Below, one piece after another: positions 1,411-17,256 of a DNA stretch of 64,000 bases. Made by a program: the position numbers and the translations under genes. Origin of the DNA: Hyphomicrobiales bacterium (lineage in GTDB: Bacteria; Pseudomonadota; Alphaproteobacteria; Rhizobiales; Rhizobiaceae); contig UCKM01000008.1 of the NCBI GenBank assembly GCA_900473175.1, positions 330,893 to 394,892 of the forward strand, read 5' to 3'. How positions within the stretch are numbered: position 1 is the first letter of the stretch; each line of letters starts with the position of its first letter. Below the pieces are notes generated by a model that searched no databases, was not told where the DNA came from, and worked only from the letters and a program-made list of their open reading frames with translations.

Positions 1411-2283
1411 CTACGCCGCCTGTTGCATCGGTGCGGGGGTCAAGGTTTCCTGTTCGACGACATCGATCGACGGGCGGTCGTAGGCGGAAATGGTCTTGCG
1501 GCCATATTCGAGTGCGATCTGCGGCAGGGCGCCGTTCATGTAGGCGAGCAGTGTCTGCTTGACGATCATGTAAAGGCGGTTCTGCTTCTCGCGGGTTGTC
1601 TTGATTTTGGTGGCGATCGGACCGACGACGCCATAGGAAAGGAAGATACCGGCGAACGTGCCGACAAGCGCAGCGCCGATGAGGTGCCCGAGGATTTCGG
1701 GCGATTCATTGAGTGCGCCCATGGCCTTGATGACGCCAAGCACGGCAGCGACGATGCCGAGCGCAGGAAGACCCTCGGAGACGCTGACCATGGCATTATA
1801 GGGCTTCAGCTTGTCGCGGGAGATCGTGTGAAGCTCCTCGTCCATCAACGCCTCGATCTCGTGCGAGCGTGCGTTGCCGATGATGATGAGCCGGCAATAG
1901 TCGCAAATGAAATGCGTCAGGTCATGGTTCCTGAGCACGCTCGGGAAGGTCTGGAAGATCGGCGATTCCGTCGGATTGTCGATATGGACTTCGACCTCGT
2001 TGCGCGATTTCGCGCGCAGCTCGCGCATCAGGGCGTAGAGAACGCCGAGAACATCGAGATAGTCTCGCTGTTTCGGAATCTTGTTGGTGAAGGCTTCCAT
2101 GCAGGCCCGGCCGGTGTCCTTGACCGCCGAGAATGGGTTGGCGACAAGAAACGTACCGAAAGCCGACCCGCCGATGATGACAAATTCCCATGGCTGCATG
2201 AGAACGGCAACGTGGCCACCCATGGCGATAAAACCGCCAAGGAGACACCCCATCGTCACGACCAGTCCAACAAGAATACCCAA
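1411..2283 (-). CDS. motA: Flagellar stator protein MotA
   Basis: MotA is the cytoplasmic-membrane stator subunit that forms the proton channel with MotB and pushes on FliG. Four hydrophobic segments are visible (about residues 1-20, 30-50, 165-190, 195-220), as is the cytoplasmic loop between segments 2 and 3 ([10 protein letters not shown] to [11 protein letters not shown]). I place the start at the TTG at 2283, which has AGGAG at ideal distance and gives 290 residues, close to other rhizobial MotA proteins. A GTG at 2298 in the same frame is the alternative. MotA is intact although its partner motB is missing from the window (see the fliH/motC junction). A candidate flagellar promoter motif ends 36 bases before the start. 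Confidence 0.92.
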
Positions 2284-2319
2284 GACGCTCTCCTGCACAT
2301 TTGCCAGCAGGCGGAGAAC

Positions 2320-2337: not shown

Positions 2338-2447
2338 TGAACCTTGCAGAAAATGGTCTTCTGCGTCGCGAGCAGGAATTTGTCCCGACAGCTTCAGGCA
2401 AGCTTGATTTGAGACACATGCGCCAAACGCTTCGGGAAAGGCGCATC

Positions 2448-3230: not shown

Positions 3231-3952
3231 TGGAAAACTCGATCTATGTGGGGTTGTCGTCGCAGATTTCGCTGGAACGCCGTCTCGATGCGCTTGCACA
3301 CAATGTAGCGAACATGTCCACGCCGGGCTTTCGCGCGACGGGCATGAAGTTCGACGTCATGGTATCGAAAGCGGCCGAGGAGTCGAGCTTTGTCAGCGCC
3401 GGTGAAAGCTTCATCAAGACCGAAGCCGGCCCGATCACACAGACGGGCAATCCGCTTGATGTGGCGGCGAAGGGCAATGTGTGGTTTTCGCTGCAATCCC
3501 CGGCGGGCCAAGTCTTTACCAGGGATGGACGCATGCAGATGTCGACCACCGGAGAACTTCGTTCGGTCAAGGGCTATCCGATTCTCGATGCAGGCGGGCA
3601 ACCATTGACGATCGATCCCGATGGCGGACCGCCGCAGATTTCATCGAGCGGCGCGGTCTATCAGAACGGCCGCCAACTCGGAGCGATCGGACTTTTCACC
3701 ATCGATCCGAACGCAAAGCTGACCTATTTCGATAACTCTGCCGTCATTCCGAGCGTCGCCGCGCAGCCGGCGCTGGACAATCCCGATGCCGGCGTCATTC
3801 AGGGAGCAATCGAAGGCTCGAATGTCGATGCTATCAGTGAAATGACGCGGTTGATGAGCGTTACCCGCGCATTCGAGCGTGTCGATGCGCTGCTCCGAGG
3901 TAACGAGAACACCTTCAGGGACGCGGTCAAGACGCTTGGATCGACCACGTGA
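3230..3952 (+). CDS. flgF: Flagellar proximal rod protein FlgF
   Basis: FlgF is a proximal rod subunit exported by the flagellar type III system. The 240-residue product begins with the rod/hook motif (SLERRLDALAHNVANMSTPGF, residues 12-32) and ends with the matching C-terminal helix (AISEMTRLMSVTRAFERVDALL). The centre carries the typical TGNPLDVAAKGNVWFSL and TRDGRMQM strands. Length is normal. It is coupled to the DUF1217 gene by a one-base overlap, and fliI follows almost directly. Confidence 0.9.
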   Translation: MENSIYVGLSSQISLERRLDALAHNVANMSTPGFRATGMKFDVMVSKAAEESSFVSAGESFIKTEAGPITQTGNPLDVAAKGNVWFSLQSPAGQVFTRDGRMQMSTTGELRSVKGYPILDAGGQPLTIDPDGGPPQISSSGAVYQNGRQLGAIGLFTIDPNAKLTYFDNSAVIPSVAAQPALDNPDAGVIQGAIEGSNVDAISEMTRLMSVTRAFERVDALLRGNENTFRDAVKTLGSTT

Positions 3953-3986
3953 GTTGGCGCCGCTCAATCCCTTGGCGCGCGGGCAG

Positions 3987-5363
3987 ATGATGCGGGCGGT
4001 TGAAGACGCCTTGCAGAGCATGAGCGCGAGAACGGGCAGCCTCGACGCGCTGGCTCGGCTCCTGTCGCAGGCGACGCAGCAGCGCGCCGTCGCCGTGGGC
4101 GGTTATGTCAATGAAGTATCCCGCTCGGCCATCGGTGTGCGCGGAATCTCGAACAAGGCGCAGCTTGGCGACATGGTGATGATCCGCTGCGATGACCGGC
4201 TTCAGCCAGCCGAGGTCGTCAGACTCGAGCAGACGCGCGTGCTGGTCAAACCCTTTGACGACCGCGTCATGCCACCCCTTGGAACGCCGGTTTTCCCGGA
4301 AGGACCATTTCGCATTGCGCCGTCACCGCAATGGAAGGGCAGGGTTATCGATGCTCTCGGCCAGCCCCTTGACGACAAGGGACTTCTACCGGCTGGCGCG
4401 CAGGCGATAGCAGTGGACTGCCCGGCGCCGCTGGCGATGAACCGCAGCAGGGTCGAAAAGGGGCTGCGTTGCGGCGTCAACGTGGTCGATGTTTTCGTAC
4501 CGATATGCTTCGGTCAACGTATGGGCATCTTTGCGGGGTCGGGTGTCGGCAAGTCGACGCTCCTCGCCATGATGACTAAGGCTGCCGATTTCGACACGGT
4601 CGTGCTGGCGCTGACCGGTGAGCGCGGGCGCGAAGTGCGCGACATGCTTGAAGACACGATGGCAGGCAAGCTTGAAAAAACCATTGCTGTTATCGCGACC
4701 GGTGACGAGAGCCCGATGATGCGGCGCCTGGCGCCGAATACGGCGACCGCGATTGCCGAATATTTCCGCGATCGCGGCGACAATGTTCTGCTCATCGTCG
4801 ATTCGATCACGCGATTTGCCCACGCTGCGCGCGAAATCGCCATCGCGGCGGGCGAGCCGCCGGTATCGCGCGGCTATCCCCCGAGCGTTTTCAGCCAGCT
4901 GCCGCGTCTTCTTGAGCGGGCCGGTCCCGGACGGGTCGGCGAGGGGACGATCACTGGCATCTACGCTGTTCTTGTCGATGGCGACGACCACAATGATCCG
5001 GTGTCGGATGCGATCCGCGGCACACTGGACGGACATATCGTGCTCGACCGTGGCATCGCCGCCCAGGGACGGTTTCCCGCTGTCGATATCCTTGGCTCGA
5101 TTTCGCGTCTTGCCCAGCACAACTGGACTCCGGAGCAGGCCAAGCTTGCGACGAGCCTGCGTGGTCTGGTTTCGCGCTTCGAGGAGACCCGGGATCTGCG
5201 GATGATCGGCGCCTATCAGGCGGGCAGCGATCCACTCATCGATCAGGCGGTCAATCTTGTCCCGCGTATCTATGGGGCCATGCAGCAGACACCGACTTCC
5301 CCGCCGTCGCTCGATCCCTACAGCGATCTTGCAATGGCACTCAGGCCAAAGGAGGCATCATGA
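3987..5363 (+). CDS. fliI: Flagellum-specific ATPase FliI
   Basis: FliI is the ATPase of the flagellar type III export apparatus and forms a hexamer related to the F1 beta subunit. Visible are the Walker A motif (GSGVGKST, about residue 180), the Walker B strand (VLLIVDSITRFAHAAREIA) and the strongly conserved PPVSRGYPPSVFSQLPRLLER block. The product has about 458 residues from the ATG at 3987. The start is uncertain: a TTG at 3954, two bases after the flgF stop, and a second ATG at 3990 are also in frame and none has a strong ribosome site. The stop overlaps the next gene (ATGA). Its usual regulator, FliH, is truncated elsewhere in this window. Confidence 0.9.
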   Translation: MMRAVEDALQSMSARTGSLDALARLLSQATQQRAVAVGGYVNEVSRSAIGVRGISNKAQLGDMVMIRCDDRLQPAEVVRLEQTRVLVKPFDDRVMPPLGTPVFPEGPFRIAPSPQWKGRVIDALGQPLDDKGLLPAGAQAIAVDCPAPLAMNRSRVEKGLRCGVNVVDVFVPICFGQRMGIFAGSGVGKSTLLAMMTKAADFDTVVLALTGERGREVRDMLEDTMAGKLEKTIAVIATGDESPMMRRLAPNTATAIAEYFRDRGDNVLLIVDSITRFAHAAREIAIAAGEPPVSRGYPPSVFSQLPRLLERAGPGRVGEGTITGIYAVLVDGDDHNDPVSDAIRGTLDGHIVLDRGIAAQGRFPAVDILGSISRLAQHNWTPEQAKLATSLRGLVSRFEETRDLRMIGAYQAGSDPLIDQAVNLVPRIYGAMQQTPTSPPSLDPYSDLAMALRPKEAS

Positions 5364-8466: not shown

Positions 8467-9692
8467 TGCGGCGCATAGCATGTCTGGTTGCCCTGATCCT
8501 TGCCGGAACGGCTGTCGCCAATGCAGGCGAGTCATCGCCCAATGCAAAGGACTACAAGTCTCCTGCCGAGGCACAGGCCGCTTGGCGAAAGGCCGAACGG
8601 GAGGCCGATGACGGCCGCTGGGGTGGCGCGGCTTCGCCTTTGGGCGAAGGCGGAGCGATCGCGCGGCTCAAAGATATCGCCAATATCCAGGGCGTTCGCG
8701 AAAACCAGCTGGTCGGCTACGGCCTCGTCATCGGCCTCAACGGTACCGGCGACAGTCTGCGCAACGCGCCGTTCACCGAACAGTCGATGCGCGCCATGCT
8801 CGACAATCTCGGCATCAGTCCGCCGCCGGGGGCCTCGCGCGTCAAAAATATCGCAGCTGTCATCGTAACCGCCAATCTGCCGCCCTTCGCCGGACGGGGT
8901 TCACGCATCGACATCACCGTTTCATCGCTGGGCGATGCAACGTCGCTGGCTGGCGGAACGCTGGTCATGACGCCGCTGGCAGCCGCAGATGGACAGACCT
9001 ATGCGGTCGCGCAAGGCAACATGATCGTTTCCGGTTTTACCGCATCTGGCGAGGCTTCAACACTGACGCAAGGCGTTCCCACGAGCGGGCGTATTCCAAA
9101 TGGTGCGCTCGTGGAAAAGGAAGTGACTGGCAATTTTGGTCAGGACGAGCTCGTTGTTGAACTGCGCCAGCCTGATTTTACCACTGCCGTGCGTATCACA
9201 GACACGATCAACGCATTTGCCAAGCGGCGCTACAACGAACCCGTCGCCAAGGAGCGGGATTCCAAGTCGATCCGGCTGCGCAAGCCAAAGAATATCTCGG
9301 CGACCCGCTTCCTCGCCGAAATCGAAGGATTGCCGGTTCCAACTGACGAGGTGGCGAGGGTCGTGGTCGACGAGCGCACAGGTACGGTCGTGATCGGCGA
9401 GAAGGTGCGGATATCGCGCGTTGCAATCAGCCATGGCAGCTTGTCCGTTCGCGTGACCGAGACGCCTACCATTGTTCAGCCAGAGCCGTTCAGCCGCGGG
9501 TTGACGGCGGTCGAACCCAATACGGACATCCAGGCCACGCAGACCTCGAACATCGGCGTCCTTGGCGGAACGGATCTGGAGAGCCTGGTCAAGGGTCTCA
9601 ATCAGATCGGGGTGAAGCCGCAGGGCATCATCGCTATCCTCCAGGGCATCAAGACAGCCGGTGCCCTACACGCTGAGCTGGTGGTGCAATGA
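8463..9692 (+). CDS. flgI: Flagellar P-ring protein FlgI
   Basis: FlgI forms the P ring in the peptidoglycan layer. The 409-residue product begins with a signal peptide (about 1-22, ends ANA) and has the conserved family core from IARLKDIANIQGVRENQLVG through GYGLVIGLNGTGDS to the C-terminus LESLVKGLNQIGVKP. Between the signal peptide and the core lie about 43 extra residues (about 23-65), rich in Ala, Lys, Asp and Gly, that most FlgI proteins of about 370 residues lack. The start is coupled to flgA. Confidence 0.93.
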   Translation: MMRRIACLVALILAGTAVANAGESSPNAKDYKSPAEAQAAWRKAEREADDGRWGGAASPLGEGGAIARLKDIANIQGVRENQLVGYGLVIGLNGTGDSLRNAPFTEQSMRAMLDNLGISPPPGASRVKNIAAVIVTANLPPFAGRGSRIDITVSSLGDATSLAGGTLVMTPLAAADGQTYAVAQGNMIVSGFTASGEASTLTQGVPTSGRIPNGALVEKEVTGNFGQDELVVELRQPDFTTAVRITDTINAFAKRRYNEPVAKERDSKSIRLRKPKNISATRFLAEIEGLPVPTDEVARVVVDERTGTVVIGEKVRISRVAISHGSLSVRVTETPTIVQPEPFSRGLTAVEPNTDIQATQTSNIGVLGGTDLESLVKGLNQIGVKPQGIIAILQGIKTAGALHAELVVQ

Positions 9693-10216
9693 GCGCGGCG
9701 ATGAGGAAATTCATCAGCCTGGGTTTTGCCATCCTGGCATTCAGCTCGGCCATGCTGTTTCCGGTCGCCTATGGTCTTTCGCAGGAGGCGGCGCCCAAGG
9801 ATGATGCCGGCCAGGAGATTGACCGGTATTGCACCAACATCAATGACAAGGCAGCGGATGCCCGCTATGCCATGCAGACGCGCGAGCTCCAGCAGCTTCG
9901 CGCCGACGTCGACAGTCGCATCGAGGAGCTTGAAGCCAAGCGCAAGGAATATGAAGTCTGGTTGAAGCGGCGCGATGAATTCATCGACAAGGCCGAGGAT
10001 TCACTTGTCGGCATCATTTCCAAGATGCGGCCCGATGCGGCCGCAGCGCAGATGGCGCTGCTCGGCGATGAGGCAGCCGCGGCGCTGCTGTTGAAACTCA
10101 ATCCGCGCGTGTCCAGCGTGATCCTGAATGAAATGCCGGCCGAGAAATCCTCCAAGCTCGCCCGTGTCATTGTCGGGTCGCGTGTCGTTCCAGAAAATGA
10201 AAGAACCGCCCAATGA
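9689..10216 (+). CDS. motE: Periplasmic motility protein MotE
   Basis: MotE is known in Sinorhizobium as a periplasmic chaperone that stabilises MotC. The 175-residue product has a signal peptide (about 1-30), a coiled coil (about 55-100, rich in Glu/Arg/Lys) and the MgtE-N-like C-terminal segment KMRPDAAAAQMALLGDEAAA. It overlaps flgI and flgH by ATGA at both ends. Its client MotC is truncated in this window, so MotE may have no substrate here. Confidence 0.85.
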   Translation: MSAAMRKFISLGFAILAFSSAMLFPVAYGLSQEAAPKDDAGQEIDRYCTNINDKAADARYAMQTRELQQLRADVDSRIEELEAKRKEYEVWLKRRDEFIDKAEDSLVGIISKMRPDAAAAQMALLGDEAAAALLLKLNPRVSSVILNEMPAEKSSKLARVIVGSRVVPENERTAQ

Positions 10217-10937: not shown

Positions 10938-11423
10938 ATGAGTGCCATCGCGGAAGAAACAACGCCAGCGCCAAAGGGACCTTCCATGGTTGCGCTCATC
11001 GCAGTTGTTGCGGTGCTGACGCTGATCGCGGCCGCGGGTGGATGGCTTTTGGGCGGACAACTGGGGCTGGCGACACCCGAGACCGATGTCGCCAAGGCAG
11101 ATGCCGGCCGGAAAGCCATTGAGGAGGCGCCCACCGGGAGCGTCGTGCCGCTTAAGCCGATTCTCACAAATGTGAAAATCCCGCAGGATGTCTGGCTGAG
11201 ACTTGAGGCGGGAGTTGTGGCGCGCCCGGGCGAGAAGATTACCGACGAACTCACGGCAATGATTTCCGGTGATTTCATGGCGTTTTTGCGCACGGTCAAT
11301 CTGATGCAACTGCGAGGCCCCGCCGGCCTCGAATATCTGCGAACGGATCTGCAGGAAAGGGCGCGCATGCGCTCGGAAGGGAAGATCGAGAAAGTGTATA
11401 TCTGGGCGCTGGTGATGGAATGA
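10938..11423 (+). CDS. fliL: Flagellar basal-body protein FliL
   Basis: FliL is a single-pass membrane protein that associates with the stator. The 161-residue product has one transmembrane segment (about residues 18-42) and a periplasmic C-terminal domain (LKPILTNVKIPQDVWLRLEA and ERARMRSEGKIEKVYIWALV). The ATG at 10938 was chosen over an upstream in-frame start that would lie inside flgH. The stop overlaps fliP (ATGA). Confidence 0.88.
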   Translation: MSAIAEETTPAPKGPSMVALIAVVAVLTLIAAAGGWLLGGQLGLATPETDVAKADAGRKAIEEAPTGSVVPLKPILTNVKIPQDVWLRLEAGVVARPGEKITDELTAMISGDFMAFLRTVNLMQLRGPAGLEYLRTDLQERARMRSEGKIEKVYIWALVME

Positions 11424-12364: not shown

Positions 12365-13147
12365 ATGACCAGCATTCTCACCAACGCGTCCGCAATGACC
12401 GCGCTGCAGACGCTCAGCACAACAAACAAGAACCTTGCCACGACCCAGGACCGTATTGCTACGGGCCAGCGCGTTGCACAGGCTTCCGACAATGCCGCCT
12501 ACTGGTCCATCGCGACCGGCATGCGTACCCAGAACACGGCTCTTTCCGCTGTTAAGGACGGCCTTGGTCTCGGTGCGTCGATCGTTGATACGGCCTATAC
12601 GTCCCTCAACAGCGCCATCGATCTCGCACAGAAGATCCAGGCAAAGTATGTCGCCAAGGAAACGCCGGGCACCGACGGCACGGTCATCGACGCCGACATT
12701 GCACAGTTCAAGGCGCAGATCGTCGAAATGGCAAAGGGCGCGACCTTCCAGGGTGTCAACCTTCTCGCAACCGGCGGCGCAGCGCAGAGCATCGTGACCG
12801 GCTACACCGCCGGTACCGGCGTGACGACCATGTCGGTTGCCGCTTACGATCTTGAAGGCGCACTGACCGCCGCGACGACTTCGTCAGCCGTCGAAACCGC
12901 TATCGGCGCAATGAAGGATGCCGCTGCCGCTCTCGGTTCGGCCAAGACCCGCATCGACACTCAGAAGAGCTTCACCGACAATCTGATGGACGCAATCGAC
13001 CGCGGTGTCGGCCAGCTCGTCGATGCCGACATGAACAAGGAATCGGCCCGTCTTTCGGCCCTCCAGGTTCAGCAGCAGCTTGGCGTTCAAGCTCTATCGA
13101 TTGCCAACTCGAGCAACCAGAGCATCCTGTCACTGTTCCGCAACTAA
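12365..13147 (+). CDS. Flagellin
   Basis: The 260-residue product is the filament subunit. The N-terminal D0/D1 region (MTSILTNASAMTALQTL... DRIATGQRV) and the C-terminal D1/D0 helices (LGVQALSIANSSNQSILSLF) are well conserved. The middle is very short, so the protein is essentially D0-D1 without an exposed variable domain. No cysteine is present and no signal peptide is expected. It is a single copy in this window, with its own leader and a strong terminator, so it is transcribed separately from the neighbouring units. Confidence 0.95.
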   Translation: MTSILTNASAMTALQTLSTTNKNLATTQDRIATGQRVAQASDNAAYWSIATGMRTQNTALSAVKDGLGLGASIVDTAYTSLNSAIDLAQKIQAKYVAKETPGTDGTVIDADIAQFKAQIVEMAKGATFQGVNLLATGGAAQSIVTGYTAGTGVTTMSVAAYDLEGALTAATTSSAVETAIGAMKDAAAALGSAKTRIDTQKSFTDNLMDAIDRGVGQLVDADMNKESARLSALQVQQQLGVQALSIANSSNQSILSLFRN

Positions 13148-13258: not shown

Positions 13259-13289
13259 TGGTTCCGCCACGGGATTGTGGTGGGTATCG

Positions 13290-14936
13290 ATGGAAAAGAA
13301 CATTAGGCAGACATTTGAGCAGCTTTTCGCCGCCATGAAGAGGCTTGGCGCGCGGCGGCTCATTGCGCTTGGGATTGTCGGGATCACGCTGTTCGGTGCC
13401 ATTCTTGTATCGAGCTTCTATCTCAACCGTCCGCAATACGAGACGCTCTATGTCGGCCTAAGCCGCGATGACATTAACCGCATGGGTATGGCGCTTGGCG
13501 AAGCGGGCATTCCTTTCGATGTGAAATCGGACGGCACGTCCATCTTGGTCCCTTTCGGCAAGGCCGATCAGGCGCGGATGTATCTGGCGGAAAAAGGACT
13601 GCCCACCAGCAACAATGCCGGCTACGAACTCTTCGATAATATGGGCTCGCTTGGCCTCACCTCCTTCATGCAGGAGATCACCCGCGTTCGCGCGCTTGAA
13701 GGTGAGATTTCCCGAACGATTCAGGCGATCCGAGGCATAAAGGCCGCGCGCGTTCATATTGTCCTGCCCGAGAAGGGCAGTTTCCGCCGCGGTGATCAGG
13801 CCCCGTCCGCCTCGGTCGTCATCCGTACCGAGGGTGACTTTGCCATCGAGTCTGCCCAGTCGATCCGTCAGCTCGTCGCTGCCGCAGTGCCGCAGCTGAC
13901 CGCCGCCGAGGTGACGATTCTCGATACAAACGGCCGGCTTCTTGCATCGAAGGATGATGGCACCAGTGCTGGCGCCGTGATGTCGGCGACGCTCGAACAG
14001 AACGTCTCGGCATCGGTGGACGAGAACATTCGCAAGGCACTGGCACCCTATCTTGGAGTGGGACATTTCCAGACCAGCGTTCAGGTGGCACTCGATACGG
14101 ACCGTCGTCAGACCAATGAAACAGTGTTCGATCCGGAATCGCGCGTGGAGCGCTCCGTGCGTGTCGTGCGCGAAAGCGGCGATACGAAGAATTCGACCAG
14201 CGACAATGCAACGGGTGTCGAACAGAATATCCCGCGTGAAGAGATTGCCAGCAAGAATGGCGACAGCTCGTCGGAGAAAACTGACAAGCGTGAGGAGCTC
14301 ACCAATTACGAGCTCAACTCCAAGACTGTTTCCACGACCAGCGACAGCTATCAGATAAAACGGCTTTCGATCGCAGTCGTTATCGATCAGGCGAGACTGA
14401 TGGCGACTGCCGGTGTAACGCCGGTTCCGGACAAGTTTGTCGAGCAGCAGATCGCCAAGATTACCGAACTCGTGGCAACGGCCGCCGGCCTCGACCAGAA
14501 ACGCGGCGATGTCATCAATGTGACCGCGGTCAACTTTATGGAGACGGCCGACGAACAGATGGCCCCGGCCGCGACGCCGGTGTCCGAAATGATATTCCGC
14601 CAGGCTGGCAGCTTCGTTAACGCGGCTGCACTCATCGCCGCCGTTGCACTCGTCATCTGGTTCGGTGTGCGCCCACTGATGCGGGAAATGGCCAAGCCCC
14701 TGGAGCTGCAGCAGCTGGCGGCCGGATCGGATATGGGATTGCCAGGCCTTGCCCCTGCTACAAATCTGCCGGCGGTGACGCCGGTCCGCTCGGAACAGAG
14801 CCTGCCGTATGATGATCTCAGTGAGCTGAGACGGCGTATGCGTGTGCCGGCCCAGAACCGGCTCGAACAGATGATCGACATGGACGAAGAGCGCGTCGCG
14901 GCGATCCTGAAACAATGGGTCCACGAGGCAGCCTGA
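13290..14936 (+). CDS. fliF: Flagellar MS-ring protein FliF
   Basis: FliF forms the MS ring in the inner membrane, the first structure assembled. The 548-residue product has transmembrane segments at about residues 22-43 and 440-460, the YscJ-like domains between them (VGLSRDDINRMGMALGEAG; ALEGEISRTIQAIRGIKAARVHIVLPE read in parts) and a C-terminal FliG-binding tail (RLEQMIDMDEERVAAILKQW). The ATG at 13290 was chosen; a TTG five codons upstream is possible. It is followed after one base by the truncated fliH-like gene. Confidence 0.95.
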   Translation: MEKNIRQTFEQLFAAMKRLGARRLIALGIVGITLFGAILVSSFYLNRPQYETLYVGLSRDDINRMGMALGEAGIPFDVKSDGTSILVPFGKADQARMYLAEKGLPTSNNAGYELFDNMGSLGLTSFMQEITRVRALEGEISRTIQAIRGIKAARVHIVLPEKGSFRRGDQAPSASVVIRTEGDFAIESAQSIRQLVAAAVPQLTAAEVTILDTNGRLLASKDDGTSAGAVMSATLEQNVSASVDENIRKALAPYLGVGHFQTSVQVALDTDRRQTNETVFDPESRVERSVRVVRESGDTKNSTSDNATGVEQNIPREEIASKNGDSSSEKTDKREELTNYELNSKTVSTTSDSYQIKRLSIAVVIDQARLMATAGVTPVPDKFVEQQIAKITELVATAAGLDQKRGDVINVTAVNFMETADEQMAPAATPVSEMIFRQAGSFVNAAALIAAVALVIWFGVRPLMREMAKPLELQQLAAGSDMGLPGLAPATNLPAVTPVRSEQSLPYDDLSELRRRMRVPAQNRLEQMIDMDEERVAAILKQWVHEAA

Positions 14937-14937
14937 G

Positions 14938-15489
14938 ATGAGCGCACGATCCGTTGCCAGCGTTCTAACAGACTTTACGCCAAAACATGTGCCGGCTGAC
15001 CGGGTAACCGTGTTCACGGCCTCGCCGCGCGACCGGAACGTACCGGTTGACGACGATGCCGGGCCGGCCGAAGCCATCGTCGACATCATCGACTATGAGC
15101 TGAAGGTCAAGGATGCCTTCGCCGCGGGCCGGGAGTCGGGTCAGGCAGAAGCGGCCGTGCTTTTCGAAGCCGAGAAGGTGCGGCTCGAGCGCGAATTCCA
15201 GGATCAGCTCGCTGCGGCGGATGCCCTGTTTCTGGAGCAGACGGGCTCGAAAATGGCCACACAGATCAGCGAGGGCCTGGCGGCAATCGCGGCCGAGCTT
15301 TGCCGCAATCGACGCGAGCACGGCGCTGCGCCGTCTCGACTACATCCGCCTCAACGCGCCGGGTACCCTGCTCGAAGAGGCTGCGCTGCGCCGCGGGTTG
15401 ACCATCGCAGCGCGGCTCGGCGACAAGGACAAGGTAAGATTGCTGGCGCGCAACTACCTGCAGCGCTTTGCCTATTCGCCCTATTCTGA
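14938..15489 (+). pseudogene. fliH-like gene, 3' half lost at a deletion junction
   Basis: FliH-type proteins bind FliI and regulate the export ATPase. Residues 1 to about 121 look like a genuine protein: a proline-containing N-terminus, then a helical segment (YELKVKDAFAAGRESGQAEA, LERRFQ-like coiled coil, ISEGLAAIAAEL) of FliH type. After about position 15300 the frame reads CRNRREHGAAPSRLHPPQ and on, which is motC sequence in the wrong frame, and it ends at 15489. Other rhizobial FliH-like proteins continue for roughly 80 further residues. The gene therefore lacks its FliI-interacting C-terminus. The start lies one base after the fliF stop. Confidence 0.7.
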
Positions 15490-16039
15490 GGATTTCTTCC
15501 GCCAACTCGTTGATGCGGTGTTGGAGCTCAAGGACAAGATCAGCAGTGACGAGATCGAGGAGGTGGCTTCCCTGGCATGGCCGGGAGCCCGACTGCCGTT
15601 CTATCTGCGGGTCGCGCGCGGCGCGCTCGTCAACGGCAATCTCAATCGTGCCCGGGTTTTTTCCGAGCGGGCGGTGGCGCTGTCGGCCGACCTCAAAACG
15701 GACGATACCCAGGCAAAGCTCTATCTTGCCGTCAGCAATGTCGGCTCCGACAAGACGGGTGATGCCAAGTTCATGCTGTCGAAACTGCCGAAGGAACGTT
15801 TGCATGATCGCGATCTGAAGCTGCTTGAGGCAGCGACGGCGATGGCGAGCCGGATCCTTTCGCAGCCGATACCGGAGCTGGAATCGCCGCAAAAGCCCGC
15901 GGCCAACAATGACCCCGTGCCAGCGAGCGCCACGGCCGGAAGCGAGCCACTGCCGGTCCGGCCCGCTGATCCGCTGATCGATGAAACAAGAAAGAAACTC
16001 GACGCGATCGACGCGCTTCTCGGGAAGGCCAGGAAATGA
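15302..16039 (+). pseudogene. motC: motC, 5' half lost (C-terminal half only)
   Basis: MotC is a periplasmic motility protein of rhizobia that works with MotB. From about 15302 the +1-shifted frame reads DASTALRRLDYIRLNAPG, TLLEEAALRRGLTIAARLGD and on to a normal C-terminus, which matches the C-terminal half of MotC (full proteins have about 430 residues; about 245 remain). No signal peptide and no start codon are present; upstream in this frame the sequence is fliH out of phase. The stop overlaps fliK by ATGA as expected for the intact operon, so the damage is confined to the 5' side. Confidence 0.7.
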
Positions 16040-17256
16040 GCATCGGAGCCGATATGCCTTTGAAATCGCAGTTTGATGCATTGGTGCGCGACGCTGCCAA
16101 GGGCAATGGCGGGCGCGATCAGAAAATGCCGGACGATGAGCACAGCGCCCCGGACTTCAAGACGATGCTGAAGGTGCCGATGCCGAAGCTCAAGCCCGGC
16201 ATGGATGAGGCGGACGCCGACGATGCGCTCGCCAAGCCGGATGAAACAGTGGAGGCCGACAAGGATCAACCGCTGGGACCCGTCCAGGGAATCTTCGGCC
16301 AGACAATCCTTGCCTTTGAGCAATTGCTTGAAAAGCAACGCCATAACCAGGAAAAGCAAACGCCCGTGTCAGACACTGCACAGGCACTGGACAATCCCGG
16401 CCCCGAATTGGCGTCGATTGAAACAATCCTGACGCCAGTTGAAGAGACGGGTCAACCGGAGGTGGACGCGACGGGTAATGACAACGCCAAGCCGATCGAC
16501 GTCACATCCAAGGCCGGGTATTCGGCTCCGGCCGGGCCAGAACTTGCAGTCAAGCCAGGGGAGGCCAAACCACGGCTCGCAGCCGTGGTTGCACAAGCGT
16601 CCGTCAGTGAGGCTGCAATCCCGAGTGTGGCTCATGCCAAAGGCAGCGAAAGAGCCCTCCCGGCGCAGGATGCGCCGACAGTGACCGTAACGCCGGCGAC
16701 ATCGATGCCCGCACAGGCGGAAGCAAGACTGGCGGCAACCCCCGCAACGGCCGTACCCCAAACGGTCAATCGTCCGCAGATTACCGACGTCCAGATACTG
16801 TCAGACCGTAGCAGCAGCGCCGCAAGAACTCTGGTGATCCAGCTGCAGCCCATCGAGCTTGGAACAGTGACGGCACGCCTCAGGCTGACGTCGGAGGGCA
16901 TGCACATCCAGCTGGCGGCCGAGAACCGGGCAACGGCAGAACATCTCGCCAAGGATCACGACGCTCTAGGCAAGGCGTTGCAACGGGCAGGGGTTGGTGA
17001 TGACGCGTCTTCGATTACGATCTCGGTGATTGATCGCTCCGGCGCCTCTTCGAACGCGACGACCGGACAGCAAAATTTGAGCGGACAGGAACAGCAGGCG
17101 GGCGCGCGTGCCAATGGCCAGGGACACTCAGCGTTTCAGGGCGCGCCGGAGGATCGTTCAACAAGCCAGCAGCTTTTTGGAGATATTGCACCGGATGAGG
17201 AAAAATCGGCGAAGACAGGCATTGAGAATGGTCCTTCACGCGGTCTGGTTGTTTAG
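16036..17256 (+). CDS. fliK: Hook-length control protein FliK (MotD type)
   Basis: The 406-residue product has a long low-complexity, Pro/Ala/Glu-rich N-terminal part (about 1-255) and a compact C-terminal domain (about 260-345) with RTLVIQLQPIELGTVTARLR, the signature of the FliK hook-length domain. In rhizobia this gene was first called motD and later recognised as fliK. It overlaps the motC stop and runs 62 bases into the following transglycosylase gene. Confidence 0.85.
   Translation: MSIGADMPLKSQFDALVRDAAKGNGGRDQKMPDDEHSAPDFKTMLKVPMPKLKPGMDEADADDALAKPDETVEADKDQPLGPVQGIFGQTILAFEQLLEKQRHNQEKQTPVSDTAQALDNPGPELASIETILTPVEETGQPEVDATGNDNAKPIDVTSKAGYSAPAGPELAVKPGEAKPRLAAVVAQASVSEAAIPSVAHAKGSERALPAQDAPTVTVTPATSMPAQAEARLAATPATAVPQTVNRPQITDVQILSDRSSSAARTLVIQLQPIELGTVTARLRLTSEGMHIQLAAENRATAEHLAKDHDALGKALQRAGVGDDASSITISVIDRSGASSNATTGQQNLSGQEQQAGARANGQGHSAFQGAPEDRSTSQQLFGDIAPDEEKSAKTGIENGPSRGLVV

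Follow-up and report, generated by a model that had tools for sequence, protein, structure and literature searches.

In the stretch of DNA analysed here (the window, 64,000 nucleotides), the flagellar stator gene motB is missing from between the remnants of two other genes, raising the questions of how this arrangement arose and whether a cell that carries it can swim. The window is part of contig 25 (430,836 bp) of a draft Phyllobacterium assembly of 4.88 Mb in 45 contigs, rated 97.94% complete, and contains no N. Our preferred answer, which we consider very likely, is that motB was lost in one recent deletion event of about 2.0 kb, whose ends were joined with hardly any homology or none, and that this event left the middle of a fliH-like gene fused, in a different frame, with the middle of motC.

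A junction between two broken genes

The features at the junction are the following.

14938..15300, plus strand: 5' remnant of the fliH-like gene, 121 codons (217-228 in relatives), from the open frame, an alignment of 15 full-length relatives and the DNA alignment of the junction
15300..15302, plus strand: deletion junction, where 16 of 16 named relatives have 1,932-2,028 bases
15301..15489, plus strand: out-of-frame tail of the fliH-like frame, ended by a stop, from frame analysis
15302..16039, plus strand: 3' remnant of motC comprising its final 245 codons (about 400 in the full gene), with the N-terminal part missing

According to the list of open reading frames, the fliH-like frame was open up to 15300 and continued out of frame until it met a stop at 15487-15489. 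In a different frame, motC coding was continuous from 15302 to 16039, and no motB lay between the two remnants. The open frames thus confirmed an earlier sequence-only reading, which had placed the end of the fliH-like coding at about 15300 and the start of motC coding, in another frame and with no motB in between, at about 15302.

Compared with relatives, the motC remnant lacked about the first 157 codons; reading the hydrophobic N-termini of the relatives by eye, we placed a putative signal peptide in this missing part. The remnant matched four NCBIfam MotC-type models (PRK12798 group) from profile positions 163-187 onward. The best match had an E-value of 1.2e-58 and all were below the curated cut-offs, as was also the case for the full-length MotC of a relative (L013).

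The identity of the fliH-like gene was less firm. A full-length relative of its product gave no FliH match in Pfam, NCBIfam and PDB-sequence searches, so that an identification by sequence was dropped, and the gene is annotated as a hypothetical protein in Phyllobacterium zundukense. An AlphaFold2 model of the full-length relative (pLDDT 75, pTM 0.40) showed one long helix (residues 41-150) followed by a C-terminal alpha/beta part; in the 121-codon remnant, the helix is cut before its end and the whole C-terminal part is missing. When this model was submitted to Foldseek, no match reached an E-value of 0.001 or better: the best one (4.2e-3) was a V-ATPase chain, and the FliH-FliI complex 5b0o came at rank 6 with a weak match (E 0.025, TM-scores 0.24/0.35). 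The fliH label of the sequence-only reading is tentative, being based on gene order and this weak fold match.

The flagellar cluster around the junction

In order to establish the state of the surrounding genes, they were compared one by one with a genome of the same genus (G009), to which the cluster showed 74-81% DNA identity.

1411..2298, minus strand: motA, intact, the only MotA_N match of the assembly (G009 comparison)
3879..5363, plus strand: fliI (export ATPase), intact (G009 comparison, name from the P. zundukense gene order)
9689..10216, plus strand: motE, intact (same evidence as fliI)
Ending at 11423: fliL, an open frame in the list of reading frames, outside the gene-by-gene comparison
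12365..13147, plus strand: flagellin gene, intact (G009 comparison and flagellin N-domain search)
13275..14936, plus strand: fliF, intact, 93% identity over 553 aa to G009
16036..17256, plus strand: fliK (formerly motD), intact (PF02120), full-length match to G009 with 52% identity
17234..17788, plus strand: SLT transglycosylase gene, intact (PF01464 and G009 comparison)

In this comparison only the best of overlapping frames was kept, which removed the fliH and fliL rows and left a small number of antisense frames in place. The flagellar frames shown in the first 30 kb of the window were open at nearly full length relative to G009, except for the broken genes. Upstream, fliN, fliG and an flhB-type gene, named from the annotation of P. 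zundukense, gave nearly full-length matches to that species. The claim that motA, motE and fliK are intact was thus borne out, and holds for the other flagellar genes compared. In addition, between motA and the next gene (window positions 2349-2385) G009 is longer by about 3.6-3.7 kb, and the P. zundukense genome (G007) is not.

The same locus in relatives

With the motC remnant as query, 16 named loci were fetched (16 of the 103 stretches matching a pattern), 15 of them titled Phyllobacterium and one titled Rhizobiales bacterium. All 16 carried consecutively a fliH-like gene (217-228 codons), motB (393-423 codons) and motC. The latter counted 396-407 codons in 14 loci; in L024 the frame is listed as 462 codons with a start lying further upstream, and in Phyllobacterium sp. 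628 (L028, 5530-6681) it stops early, after 383 codons and with a different C-terminus, possibly owing to a frameshift near the end. In every locus the DNA separating the joined points (1,932-2,028 bases, as listed above) comprised the end of the fliH-like gene, a complete motB and the beginning of motC, which is the loss of about 2 kb that had been proposed from the window alone.

Furthermore, both pieces were present, apart from each other, in 18 of the 19 other genomes of the genus, and the same 18 contained a MotB_plug match. The comparison with relatives that the sequence-only reading had called for thus gave a full fliH-motB-motC locus in 16/16 named loci, and separate pieces together with MotB_plug in 18/19 genomes. 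In the remaining genome (G015, 88% complete) the locus was unmatched and neither a flagellin N-domain nor MotB was detected; its flagellar system may have been wholly lost, or may lie in the missing part of the assembly. As some genomes are identical to named loci (G009 is L013; G007 is NZ_CP017945.1), these counts are not independent. Each species has a single genome in the collection, and the window's species is represented by one strain.

Five Phyllobacterium records that are classed as plasmids carry the stretch from fliF to the transglycosylase gene, and the annotation of one of them, NZ_CP017945.1 (211 kb), includes a whole flagellar cluster.

Profile searches were extended to chemotaxis, and control genomes behaved as expected in both of the chemotaxis searches. 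Among the 20 genomes of the genus (G000-G019), MotB was found in 18 and the flagellin N-domain, a profile to which FlgL-type proteins respond as well, in 19. CheW was found in none of the 20, and the chemoreceptor (MCP) signalling domain in one (G007, in two pieces). As judged from these profiles, flagella occur throughout Phyllobacterium, but no chemotaxis pathway can be recognised. In a family sample of 121 genomes, two of them from the window's genus, MotB was found in 99 and CheW in 62; when the lists were compared by hand, 60 genomes had both, 39 had MotB but no match to CheW, and in two (G100, G132) CheW was present without MotB. A literature search on Phyllobacterium chemotaxis, at the level of the listings, returned unrelated matches only.

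Search for the missing genes and for another stator

A profile search for a MotB stator protein (PF13677 plus PF00691) gave no MotB_plug match in the window's assembly, and the MotB of a relative matched two proteins, in both cases only within the C-terminal OmpA part. When the fliH-motB-motC DNA of a relative was compared with the whole assembly, this locus alone was matched; the missing 2 kb was on no other contig. MotC was found in one place, and the single MotA_N match was the open motA of the window. The search of the rest of the genome for motB and a second motC, proposed by the sequence-only reading, thus recovered neither from the assembly.

Apart from these genes, contig 37 (L061 2-1803) holds a MotA_ExbB-type protein adjoining a 343-aa OmpA-type protein. 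The former scored over the Pfam cut-off, is truncated at the end of the locus and gave weak matches to ZorA models. The latter showed no MotB_plug match and fitted PRK09039 (peptidoglycan-binding protein, NCBIfam) far over the cut-off. By these profile matches it is a non-flagellar MotAB-like pair, a cousin of the stator without the MotB plug, and no other candidate for a second stator was found in the assembly.

Breakpoints and age of the probable deletion

In gapped alignments, the two breakpoints had at most 2 bases in common in register, as judged from relatives and not from the ancestor. An AGCTT motif lies near both breakpoint ends in some relatives. The longest word common to the two 80-bp flanks was 5-8 bases in the 16 relatives; for every one of the 16 loci, 18 or more of 200 random places did equally well, and the length was at or below the random-place mean in 10 loci and above it in 6. 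This control is only approximate, because some random places can overlap with the flank. BLAST pieces of L013/G009 overlapped by 7 bases at the junction, but this overlap was out of register in the gapped alignments, and a deletion mediated by a 7-base repeat was rejected for that reason. Since no repeat was found at the breakpoints, the deletion is more likely to have come from end joining or an accident during replication than from repeat-based recombination.

To estimate the age of the event, dN/dS ratios were calculated for nine coding pieces with six of the 16 loci (L013, L015, L016, L017, L020 and L025, the last serving only to set the shared codons), and pairs with saturated dS were excluded. 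Against the five relatives, the motC remnant gave dN/dS values of 0.08-0.12, compared with 0.06-0.17 when these relatives were paired with each other; the corresponding values were 0.08-0.17 and 0.10-0.23 for the fliH-like remnant. The estimates are rough because the synonymous distances of both remnants were at least 0.97. No sign of relaxed constraint was seen in either remnant relative to the five relatives. As the remnants are undecayed, the ratios support a deletion that would be recent relative to the divergence of the species.

Alternative explanations

The sequence-only reading had considered the event either recent or an assembly collapse; the remnants favour the first part, and the second became less likely. 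The junction could be false, or the culture mixed, if the assembler had chosen a short path without the 2 kb; motB would then persist in some or most of the cells. The junction is indeed known from the assembly alone, a draft in 45 contigs, and remnants as conserved as living genes would also be expected of a false junction. Nevertheless, a collapse by the assembler is unlikely given that the breakpoints have no long repeat, the missing DNA is absent from every other contig, and the junction lies inside a large contig in a window without N. We regard such an artefact or mixed culture as unlikely. The loss might also be old and fixed, in a lineage whose flagellum is retained as a non-rotating structure or as an export device. 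This would agree with the other compared flagellar genes being still open, but the motC and fliH remnants, useless in such a lineage, show no decay and the fliH-like gene is also cut, so that this explanation is highly improbable.

It may also be asked whether the strain keeps its export machine and filament genes for attachment or secretion, the loss of the stator being adaptive rather than accidental. If true, stator loss, in a genus without a recognisable chemotaxis pathway, would be a step from a motor to a static organelle; we consider this very unlikely. The contig 37 pair could be imagined to take over and power the flagellum, as it exists and its genes are adjacent, but the lack of a MotB_plug match and the strong fit to PRK09039 in the 343-aa protein leave this barely credible. 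An ordinary, recent loss-of-function mutation is the probable explanation, and the deletion would most likely have arisen in the strain or during its cultivation, under conditions that did not require swimming.

Expected effect on motility

The C-terminal part of FliH binds FliI; the cut FliH would lose this part, and the truncation of the fliH-like gene may additionally lower flagellar export. MotB is essential to the motor, and the remaining MotA, without it, would form no anchored, torque-generating stator. MotC binds MotB in the periplasm (PMC8429497), a compartment that the MotC remnant, without its N-terminus, would miss. The cell is thus expected to be paralysed and perhaps poorly flagellated, and the strain is probably non-swimming. 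Among titles and abstract openings, a literature search found no description of a non-motile Phyllobacterium strain.

The window would be a clear example of motility that was probably lost very recently, through one small deletion, with the other compared flagellar genes open, and the strain would serve as a natural stator-null strain. In a 2025 survey, the presence of a FliC homologue is given as a good predictor of flagellar motility (PMC12199754). The window genome carries an open flagellin gene, and a prediction from flagellin presence or from a count of flagellar genes would call the strain motile, probably wrongly.

Comparison with known systems

In Phyllobacterium zundukense Tri-48 (NZ_CP017945.1), the annotation of the same locus reads fliF-hypothetical-motB-motC-fliK in the same gene order, with about 2 kb more than in the window and every gene annotated whole. 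The gene order in Sinorhizobium meliloti is motB-motC-motD. In that species, MotC and MotE accompany MotB, and loss of either motB or motC is reported to paralyse the mutants (PMC10954123, PMC8429497); on this precedent, the window strain should not swim. In contrast to these mutants, the window has one natural or culture-derived deletion that hits motB together with parts of the fliH-like gene and motC. In Brucella, a review table lists MotC as BAB2_1102, MotB as BAB2_1103 and FliF as BAB2_1105 (PMC8781033), a numbering which places these genes near one another. Unlike in the window, motB is listed there as present, and FliG, FliM and FliH/FliI/FliJ are among the pseudogenes listed in that review.
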